58,932 bases of DNA. It comes from Chthoniobacteraceae bacterium (GTDB lineage: Bacteria; Verrucomicrobiota; Verrucomicrobiia; Chthoniobacterales; Chthoniobacteraceae). Both the position numbers and the translations under genes were made by a program. Below, piece by piece: positions 14,248-17,658 of this stretch (positions are counted from its first letter, which is position 1; every line of letters starts with the position of its first letter). The DNA lies in NCBI GenBank assembly GCA_947476045.1, contig CANJNZ010000022.1:1-58932 (forward strand), written 5' to 3'. A model generated the notes under the pieces. It did not search any database and had not been told where the DNA came from. It saw only the letters and a list, made by a program, of their open reading frames with translations.

Positions 14248-14343
14248 ATGGAAAATCGCGACACCATCGCCACGGCAATCGCTGCATCCGCGCTTGCCTC
14301 ACGTTTGCCGACAGCACACGTCGCTGATACACACACCAAATGA
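14248..14343 (+). CDS. Possible 31-residue small protein before the antitoxin
   Basis: A short frame from ATG 14248 to a TGA that overlaps the antitoxin ATG (ATGA, 14340-14343) encodes a Thr/Ala/His-rich peptide. The four-base overlap with the antitoxin start suggests translational coupling. However, the composition is unremarkable and no family is recognised. It could be a leader peptide or chance. Confidence 0.25.
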   Translation: MENRDTIATAIAASALASRLPTAHVADTHTK

Positions 14344-14525
14344 GCAACCGCCAAATTGTAATCGATCTACTCTCGAAGATGCCCGAGGACGCGCCGCTTG
14401 AGGACATAGCGCACGAAATCGAATTCCTCGCGGGCATCCGCGTGGCGAGGGAGCAGGCCAGCCGTCGCGAAGGTCTGCCGGTGGAAGAAGCGCCCGCTCT
14501 AGTGAACACATGGGCTGGCCAGTAA
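14340..14525 (+). CDS. Antitoxin of a ParDE/RelBE-type toxin-antitoxin pair
   Basis: The 61-residue protein lies just before a ParE-like toxin, with a 16-bp overlap that is common in such pairs. The N-terminus (SNRQIVIDLLSKMPEDAPLEDIAHEIEFLAG) resembles short antitoxins with an amphipathic helix. The C-terminal part would wrap the toxin. No clear ribbon-helix-helix motif is visible, so the family is uncertain. It would neutralise the toxin and probably repress the pair. Confidence 0.75.
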   Translation: MSNRQIVIDLLSKMPEDAPLEDIAHEIEFLAGIRVAREQASRREGLPVEEAPALVNTWAGQ

Positions 14526-14815
14526 TCCTCACCCCGCAATCGCAGGAGGATCTGCGCGGAATCGTCTCATTCATCTCGCACAACAGTCCCGACCGTGCCC
14601 GCCGCTTCGGAAACCGCCTCATCGAGCAAGCGCGCTCCATTGGCAACTTTCCAGAAATGGGGCGCATCGTGCCGGAAATCGGCGAACCCACAGTCCGCGA
14701 AATCATCCACGGCTCCTACCGCATCGTTTATGAACTTCTGCACAACCCCGACGCCGTTTACATTTTGCGTTTCTGGCACGCGGCGCGGGGAAACCCGGAG
14801 CCTGGCGAAGACTGA
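14510..14815 (+). CDS. ParE/RelE-family toxin
   Basis: The 101-residue protein has the ParE fold pattern: PVILTPQSQEDLRGIVSFIS, then ARRFGNRLIEQARSI, a central PEMGRIVPE, and the C-terminal IREIIHGSYRIVYEL-like strand (VREIIHGSYRIVYE) with VYILRFWHAARG. ParE toxins poison DNA gyrase and RelE relatives cut mRNA; which applies cannot be told here. The start overlaps the antitoxin gene. The pair sits between hisB and hisH, so it may be transcribed with the his genes. Confidence 0.88.
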   Translation: MGWPVILTPQSQEDLRGIVSFISHNSPDRARRFGNRLIEQARSIGNFPEMGRIVPEIGEPTVREIIHGSYRIVYELLHNPDAVYILRFWHAARGNPEPGED

Positions 14816-14841: not shown

Positions 14842-15441
14842 ATGATCGCACTCATTGACTACGGCTCCGGCAACGTCCGCAGCGTCTTCAACGCACTCAC
14901 CTCCCTCGGCGCGAAAGTCCGGCTCACAGCCGACGTGGGCGAAATTTCGCGCGCCGAGAAAATCGTCCTCCCCGGCGTCGGTGCGTTTGGCGATTGCGTG
15001 CGCGGATTGCAGGAGCGCGACTTGTGGGGCCCGATGCAGGACAGCCTCGCCAGCGGTCGGCCCTTCCTCGGCATCTGCGTCGGCTACCAGATGCTCTTCG
15101 AGCAAAGCGAAGAGACCCCCAGCGTCCATGGGCTTGGATTTTTTCCCGGCAAAGTGAAGCGCTTCGCCACACCCGGCTTAAAAGTCCCGCAAATCGGCTG
15201 GAACAACCTCGACCTCACCCCGCACCCCCTCTGGGCCGGTCTCCCCGCGCAGCCCCACGTCTACTTCGTCCACAGCTACTACTGCGAACCCGCCGACCCC
15301 ACCACCGTCATCGCCCGCACCACCTACGGCGAAACCTTCGCCGCCGCCGCCGCGCGAGGCAGCGTCGCCGGCGTCCAATTTCACCCCGAAAAAAGCCAGA
15401 CCGTCGGCCTCGGCATCCTGAAAAACTTCCTCAACACCTAA
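14842..15441 (+). CDS. hisH: Imidazole glycerol phosphate synthase, glutaminase subunit
   Basis: HisH supplies ammonia from glutamine to HisF in the fifth step of histidine synthesis. The 199-residue class I amidotransferase has the nucleophile elbow GICVGYQM, the oxyanion-region PGVGAFGDC, and the catalytic His/Glu in QFHPEKSQ. The synthase partner hisF is not in this window. hisA follows after 5 bp, so they are co-transcribed. Confidence 0.97.
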   Translation: MIALIDYGSGNVRSVFNALTSLGAKVRLTADVGEISRAEKIVLPGVGAFGDCVRGLQERDLWGPMQDSLASGRPFLGICVGYQMLFEQSEETPSVHGLGFFPGKVKRFATPGLKVPQIGWNNLDLTPHPLWAGLPAQPHVYFVHSYYCEPADPTTVIARTTYGETFAAAAARGSVAGVQFHPEKSQTVGLGILKNFLNT

Positions 15442-15446
15442 ACACC

Positions 15447-16166
15447 GTGCTCCTAATTCCAGCCATAGACCTCATGTCCGGCCAAGTCGTCCGCCTCCAA
15501 CAAGGCCGCGCCGACCAAAAAACCGTCTATTCCAGCGACCCCGCCGCCTTCGCGCGAAAATGGGAAACCGAAGGCGGCGACTGGCTCCACATCGTGGACC
15601 TCGACGCCTCCTTCACCGGCCAGCAGAGCAACCTCGCCTCCGTCCGCGCCATCACCAGCGCCGTCAAAATCCCCTGCGAACTCGGCGGCGGCATCCGCAC
15701 CCCCGAAGCCATCGAACGCGCCCTCGAAGCAGGCGTCACCCGCGTCATCCTCGGCACCAAAGCCGCCGAATCCCTCGACTTCGTCGCCGAAATGGCCACC
15801 CGCTTTGGCCGCGACAAAATCGCCGTCGGCATTGATGCCAAAAACGGCATCGTCTCCGTCAAAGGCTGGACACAAGAAACCGGCCAGAGCGCCCTCGACC
15901 TCGCCATCGCCGCCGTCCACGCCGGCGCAGGCACCATCATCTACACCGACATCGCCACCGACGGCATGTTGACCGGCCCCAACTTCGCCGAAACCGAACG
16001 CGTCCACCACGCCATCCACCCCCTTGGCGGCCAACTCATCGCCAGCGGCGGCGTCGGCACCGCAGCCCACGTCACCCGCCTCCGCCAAATCCCGGAACTC
16101 TACGGCTGCATCATCGGCAAAGCCCTCTACGACGGCGCAGTCACGCTGCAACAATGCGCCGCATAA
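15447..16166 (+). CDS. hisA: Phosphoribosylformimino-5-aminoimidazole carboxamide ribotide isomerase
   Basis: HisA opens the ribose ring in the fourth step of histidine synthesis. It is a 239-residue TIM barrel with LLIPAIDLMSGQVVRL (catalytic Asp), CELGGGIRT, VILGTKA, IIYTDIATDGML (second catalytic Asp) and IASGGVGT phosphate loops. The start is a GTG at 15447, because the family N-terminus V/M-L-L-I-P-A-I-D begins there and hisH ends 5 bp before. A much longer in-frame upstream extension overlaps hisH and is not real. Confidence 0.96.
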   Translation: MLLIPAIDLMSGQVVRLQQGRADQKTVYSSDPAAFARKWETEGGDWLHIVDLDASFTGQQSNLASVRAITSAVKIPCELGGGIRTPEAIERALEAGVTRVILGTKAAESLDFVAEMATRFGRDKIAVGIDAKNGIVSVKGWTQETGQSALDLAIAAVHAGAGTIIYTDIATDGMLTGPNFAETERVHHAIHPLGGQLIASGGVGTAAHVTRLRQIPELYGCIIGKALYDGAVTLQQCAA

Positions 16167-16212: not shown

Positions 16213-17202
16213 ATGAAAGCTCTCTACCTCGACTGCATCTCTGGCATCAGCGGCGATATGACCGTCGGCGCACTTCTCGACCTCGGCGTGAAACCCAGCG
16301 CGCTGGAGTGGGAATTGAGCAAGCTGAACCTCGGCGATTTTCACATGCACTATGACCGCGCAAAGCGGAAGGAGATCGAGGGTGTGAAGTTCGACATCCA
16401 CGGCGGTGCGACGCACGGGGAGGATTGCGGGCACGGCCACGGGCATGAACACGGGCACTCGCACGAGGAGAAGCACGAGTGCTGCGGCCAGGGCGAACAT
16501 TCGCACGACGGCGGGAAGCATGAGCACACGCACACGCACGAACATTCGCACGGCGGCGAGTCGCATTCGCATGAACATTCCCACGAGCACGCGCATGAGC
16601 ACGGCCACGATTGCTGCGGACACAAGCACGAGGAGCACGCGCACGAGCATGGGCACGAGGAGCAGGGGCATCATCACCACCACGAGGACTCGCGCACCTA
16701 CGCGCAAATCCGCGAGATCATCGAGCATAGCGAGCTGTCCGCTTTCGTGAAGAAGCACGCCGTCGGCATTTTTCACCGCATCGCCGTGGCTGAGGGAAAG
16801 ATCCACGGGCAGCCGCCCGAGAGCGTTCATTTTCACGAGGTGGGCGCGTTCGATTCCATCGCGGACATCGTGCTTTCCTGCGTGGGCATCGAGGCGCTGG
16901 GCGTGGAGAAGGTGTATGTTTCCCGGCTGCACGACGGTCACGGAACGGTGGAGTGCGCTCACGGGACATTCCCCGTGCCTGCGCCCGCGACGCTGGAGAT
17001 TCTGAAGGGCATCCCGCTCGGGCAGATTGATGAACCGCACGAACTCATCACGCCCACCGGCGCTGCGATCGCGGCGGAGTTCGCCGTGAGTTTTGGCGAG
17101 ATGCCTGTGATGAAGATCGAGCGCATCGGCTACGGTCTCGGCACGCGTGAACTCGCGGCCCGCCCGAATGTTCTGCGTGCAGTGCTCGGCGAACTGGCGT
17201 AA
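16213..17202 (+). CDS. larC: LarC N-terminal part with expanded His-rich segment (nickel-pincer cofactor synthesis)
   Basis: LarC inserts nickel into the pincer nucleotide cofactor of lactate racemase-type enzymes. The 329 residues match its first part: LYLDCISGISGDMTVGALLDL, VHFHEVGAFDSIADI, LHDGHGTVECAHGTFPVPAPAT and ELITPTGAAI. Residues 63-157 are an extreme histidine-rich insertion, with 36 His and 5 Cys (C72, C90, C91, C134, C135) in 95 residues. LarC normally has a shorter His-rich linker, so this suggests strong nickel buffering. The protein ends at TAA 17200-17202, in the same frame as and four codons before the downstream ATG encoding the C-terminal domain. larB and larE are not in the window. 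Confidence 0.9.
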   Translation: MKALYLDCISGISGDMTVGALLDLGVKPSALEWELSKLNLGDFHMHYDRAKRKEIEGVKFDIHGGATHGEDCGHGHGHEHGHSHEEKHECCGQGEHSHDGGKHEHTHTHEHSHGGESHSHEHSHEHAHEHGHDCCGHKHEEHAHEHGHEEQGHHHHHEDSRTYAQIREIIEHSELSAFVKKHAVGIFHRIAVAEGKIHGQPPESVHFHEVGAFDSIADIVLSCVGIEALGVEKVYVSRLHDGHGTVECAHGTFPVPAPATLEILKGIPLGQIDEPHELITPTGAAIAAEFAVSFGEMPVMKIERIGYGLGTRELAARPNVLRAVLGELA

Positions 17203-17214
17203 TTTTTCGCAGCC

Positions 17215-17658
17215 ATGAGCTACGAAACAGACACGGTCACCAAGCTCGAAACCAATCTCGACGATCTCTCGCCGGAGATCACGGGCGCGGTGATGGCGCA
17301 ACTGTTCGCCGCAGGTGCGCTCGATGTGTGGCTCACGCCGGTCCAGATGAAAAAGAATCGCCCCGGCGTGATGCTCTCCGTGCTCTGCGAGGAATCCACC
17401 GTGGCCGCGCTGACCGATCTTATTTTCGCCGAGACGAGCGCATTTGGTCTGCGCGTGGAGAAGGTTGTGCGGCTGAAACTCGCCCGCCGCTTTGCGCAAG
17501 TGAGCACGGAGTTTGGCGAGGTGACGGTGAAGCTGGGATTGAAAGGTGAGCGCGTGGTGCAGGTCGCGCCGGAGTTCGAGAGCTGCCGTGCTGTCGCGGA
17601 AAAAGCAGGTGTGCCGCTGCGCGCCGTGTATGCGGCGGCGATTGCGGCGCGGAGGTAG
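17215..17658 (+). CDS. larC: LarC C-terminal domain encoded as a separate protein
   Basis: The 147-residue product carries the C-terminal LarC domain (KLETNLDDLSPEITGAVM, FAAGALDVWLTPVQMKKNRPGVML, VCEES-like strands and an ERVVQVAPEFESC segment). It lies in the same frame as the N-terminal part, separated by one TAA and four codons (FFAA). In Lactiplantibacillus plantarum, larC is also split and full-length LarC needs programmed frameshifting. Here no frameshift is needed, only stop readthrough or assembly of two subunits. No good Shine-Dalgarno lies before the ATG at 17215, so translation may be coupled to the upstream frame. Confidence 0.88.
   Translation: MSYETDTVTKLETNLDDLSPEITGAVMAQLFAAGALDVWLTPVQMKKNRPGVMLSVLCEESTVAALTDLIFAETSAFGLRVEKVVRLKLARRFAQVSTEFGEVTVKLGLKGERVVQVAPEFESCRAVAEKAGVPLRAVYAAAIAARR

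Follow-up and report, generated by a model that had tools for sequence, protein, structure and literature searches.

When a single in-frame stop codon separates the two domains of an otherwise intact enzyme, does the locus specify one recoded protein, two proteins or a decaying gene? This question is raised by larC in a member of the Chthoniobacteraceae, of which a stretch of 58,932 nucleotides (contig CANJNZ010000022.1, referred to below as the window) was analysed. The original prediction had been that the N- and C-terminal parts of LarC lie in one reading frame, separated only by a TAA and four codons, and that this would call for readthrough of the stop, for coupled reinitiation or for an enzyme of two subunits. 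Here, the locus is compared with its counterparts in related bacteria, and it is concluded that an old fission of larC has very probably given rise to a two-subunit LarC, the second subunit being made from its own start codon.

Structure of the larC locus

The arrangement originally described was confirmed. On the forward strand, the frame 16213–17658 is open except for a single interruption by TAA at 17200–17202, which is followed by the four codons TTT TTC GCA GCC and then, with the frame unchanged, by an ATG at 17215–17217. The features of the region are:

14842–15441, forward strand: hisH, GATase domain (PF00117), likewise preceding hisA in several relatives
15450–16166, forward strand: hisA (PF00977, E 1.5e-74), directly 5' of larC1
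16213–17202, forward strand: larC1 (329 aa), covering the N-terminal portion of LarC and containing a His-rich insert (PF01969, TIGR00299)
17200–17202, forward strand: TAA stop codon of larC1, in the inter-domain linker, with a corresponding stop in 26 further family genomes
17203–17214, forward strand: 12-nt gap separating larC1 from larC2, with no Shine-Dalgarno match
17215–17658, forward strand: larC2, 147 aa, C-terminal (CTP-binding) LarC domain with its own ATG (PF01969, NF052512, 6bwo)

Against Pfam PF01969 (cut-off 22.1 bits), LarC1 matched positions 1–234 (E 1.1e-86, 291.8 bits) and LarC2 positions 240–375 (E 5.1e-51, 174.4 bits). Jointly the two span the whole LarC family profile and, since larC1 ends in it at 234 and larC2 begins at 240, the stop falls in the short inter-domain linker. 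The NCBIfam models for the separate parts were also matched, by LarC1 with 220 bits (TIGR00299, LarC1; cut-off 90) and by LarC2 with 152 bits (NF052512, LarC2; cut-off 50). LarC2 further matched 6bwo (E 3.3e-26), a separately solved chain of 149 residues that represents the LarC2 domain of Lactiplantibacillus plantarum, and the conserved LarC2 motifs ETNLDD, MKK.RP and APEFESC were present in an alignment with 11 relatives as well as in alignments with 6bwo and 12bi. No second PF01969 match or intact LarC copy was found by profile search of the genome, which is 96.8% complete, and an Rfam scan of the window gave no match. An insert in LarC1 (window positions 16393–16698, approximately residues 61–162) holds 36 histidines in about 100 residues; its length is highly variable across relatives, and it is likely to serve as a metal-binding or nickel-storage loop.

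In most family genomes hisA is found directly 5' of larC, whether larC is split or fused, and the locus is therefore orthologous among them. LarB, LarE and two LarA-like genes are encoded on other contigs of the same genome, so that the nickel-pincer nucleotide pathway looks complete. Between hisB and hisH lies a ParE-type toxin gene (14510–14815, PF05016), and a short ORF 5' of it (about 14340–14525) may encode the antitoxin. The end of hisB is within a few bases of hisH in a close relative (G031, locus L002) that has no toxin-type insert, and the toxin-antitoxin pair therefore seems to be a recent arrival in the his operon.

Split and fused larC among relatives

An order-wide search of 213 genomes gave a PF01969 match in 88, most of the genomes compared being apparently metagenome bins, and the junction was compared in every family member with a LarC hit. 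Split larC was found in all 27 LarC-bearing genomes of five Chthoniobacteraceae genera (g1–g4 and g9), including an isolate, Chthoniobacter flavus Ellin428 (G019; NZ_ABVL01000003.1). Alignment of relatives had been proposed as a check on the stop, and it placed a stop at the corresponding position in each of the 26 other genomes. A stop confined to this genome had been named as the outcome that would speak against the original prediction; the split is instead shared across these 27 genomes, although the sister genera have a fused gene.

The junction itself has drifted. The stop codon is TAA in 19 genomes, TAG in 4 and TGA in 4, and relative to LarC1 the LarC2 frame is 0, 1 or 2 in 16, 4 and 7 genomes, respectively. 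LarC2 opens with ATG in all 27, at offsets from −4 (an ATGA overlap) to +65 nt counted from the first base after the stop, and the genomes with both halves in frame have 1–8 codons from stop to ATG. In G004, the larC1/larC2 junction is such an ATGA overlap. A corresponding methionine was absent from the fused linkers inspected. An ATG that is kept just before the LarC2 core, and that has no counterpart in the fused linkers inspected, marks larC2 as an independent gene. A start driven by a Shine-Dalgarno sequence was considered and set aside, the mean duplex energy before larC2 being about that of shuffled upstream sequence and that at the starts of larC1 being no better. A Shine-Dalgarno match is missing 5' of both larC1 and larC2 in most split genomes and, since larC1 starts mostly without one as well, its absence before larC2 speaks neither for nor against initiation there.

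Continuous larC genes were found in three sister genera of the Chthoniobacteraceae (five genomes), and in other families nearly all of the junctions read were continuous. The family f9 includes a split gene in G073, the neighbours G071 and G072 being fused. A set of 80 named loci, drawn from several phyla, comprised 8 split and 69 apparently fused genes and 3 cut by contig ends; the split loci with a counterpart in the order-wide set were those of the Chthoniobacteraceae and the f9 case. At one split locus (L080) the halves are in different frames, though the upstream frame happens to be open. Double matches pointing to further splits elsewhere in the phylum proved to be mostly contig-end fragments. 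At L031 (G028, contig C278) an additional frame change was seen in the middle of LarC1, possibly an assembly error.

In another genome of the same phylum (G236), the LarC halves are on separate large contigs, each well away from the contig ends (LarC1 at L066 1498–2430, LarC2 at L071 1513–1938). Its LarC2 gene shares an ATGA overlap with the end of an unrelated upstream gene and is followed by what is presumably a radical-SAM gene resembling hemW. The arrangement in G236, which may be a metagenome bin, is taken as supporting evidence only for a two-protein LarC.

Selection on the two halves and number of fissions

Pairwise dN/dS (Nei-Gojobori) had been suggested for the downstream part and was calculated for both halves. 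In most pairs with unsaturated dS it was about 0.05–0.43 for LarC2 and 0.03–0.28 for LarC1, in both cases overlapping the fused relatives; the ratio is unreliable for very close and for saturated pairs, and dS is saturated in most pairs of genus g3. Purifying selection acts on both LarC1 and LarC2.

When 47 LarC sequences were placed in a tree, 2–3 changes were required to explain the split. A constraint placing all split family members together was not rejected (p-AU 0.58) and scored slightly better. On this tree, a single fission in the family and another in G073 would suffice; two in the family would also be compatible with it.

Discussion

A gene fission is recognised by a start codon of its own for the downstream gene, by selection within the clade and by fused outgroups, all of which were found for larC2. 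We propose that in an ancestor within the Chthoniobacteraceae a stop codon arose in the inter-domain linker and split larC into adjacent, separately started genes. The frame shared by the two halves at the present locus is probably an ancestral relic of this nonsense mutation. One message, with transcription probably continuing from hisA, would give LarC1 and LarC2 as two polypeptides, and translation of larC2 would begin at its own ATG 12 nt downstream, most likely by termination-coupled reinitiation; the short gaps, including the ATGA overlap in G004, suit such a mechanism. The two proteins would then serve the nickel-pincer nucleotide cofactor as a CTP-dependent nickel insertase of two subunits. 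LarC1 and LarC2 probably act together as LarC, and a two-protein form is supported by the LarC2 domain having been solved alone (6bwo) and by the halves lying apart in G236.

Desguin et al. in 2014 reportedly found the larC1 and larC2 frames of L. plantarum to be bridged by frameshifting, yielding full-length LarC, and programmed stop readthrough or another form of recoding might fuse the halves similarly in the Chthoniobacteraceae. The common frame and the few codons separating stop and ATG, here and in the in-frame family genomes generally, would agree with this. However, the other 11 of the 27 genomes have LarC2 in a different frame, and both alternatives occur, so that one kind of recoding could not join the halves in all of them. 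Among relatives, neither the stop codon nor its context nor the spacing is constant, no conserved slippery run was seen at the junctions inspected, and the start ATG is present every time. Recoding would be recognised by a frame relation and a junction conserved across relatives; both are unconstrained, and there is therefore no conserved readthrough or frameshift site. Recoding is thus very unlikely, and the chance is equally slender that partial readthrough in the in-frame members, this genome included, yields some full-length LarC beside the two subunits. Among the possibilities raised by the original prediction, the two-subunit enzyme is retained and reinitiation appears likely; readthrough is not upheld, and the parallel with L. 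plantarum does not carry over, since the relative frame of the halves differs from one relative to another.

The fused gene of the sister genera and of most other bacteria could suggest that the present locus is a pseudogene, or a normal fused larC affected by a sequencing or assembly error. This is barely conceivable given that the split recurs in 27 genomes including an isolate, that dN/dS is low on either side of the stop, and that the domain matches are full-length in a genome with no other LarC copy. By comparison with the relatives, the TAA at 17200–17202 is an ordinary gene end, neither a sequencing error nor a recoding signal. It is also quite improbable that larC1 and larC2 have functionally diverged and no longer make up a joint nickel insertase. 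One genome of the phylum (G236) has the halves apart, which leaves room for divergence; yet both halves exceed curated equivalog cut-offs, they are still adjacent, and the remaining pathway genes are present. The fission into two cooperating subunits thus remains the preferred reading.

The division of LarC at the inter-domain linker, and the naming of two frames as LarC1 and LarC2, are shared with L. plantarum. There, a frameshift reportedly makes full-length LarC, whereas the junctions of the Chthoniobacteraceae vary in frame, stop and spacing, so that no recoding is expected. The LarC of Moorella thermoacetica is fused, and its activity has been reported (PMC11796402). Both domains, the conserved motifs and a presumed CTP-dependent nickel insertion are common to such fused LarC proteins (PF01969) and to the pair described here; the former are one continuous polypeptide, whereas in the latter a linker stop codon divides the coding sequence into two genes. 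In Anaerobutyricum, a firmicute, larC1 and larC2 are annotated as separate genes whose locus numbers are adjacent (EHLA_1342/1341), and both products were detected in its proteome (PMC7702098). On these comparisons, fused LarC is the common form and the Chthoniobacteraceae pair, as a stable fission, is a variation on an enzyme architecture already known. The pair suggests that LarC can do without a covalent link between its two domains, and separable LarC1 and LarC2 proteins would make it easier to study how the CTP-binding part cooperates with the substrate- and nickel-binding part. The fused sister genera and the conserved his-larC neighbourhood make this a tidy case of gene fission, and in annotation such split genes should not be labelled as pseudogenes or as recoded.

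A second LarC in G525, on a contig that is possibly a contaminant (L069 2205–2230), is also split, its frames overlapping at a run of A, and the next gene is larE-like. This junction looks like a frameshift site of the L. plantarum type.
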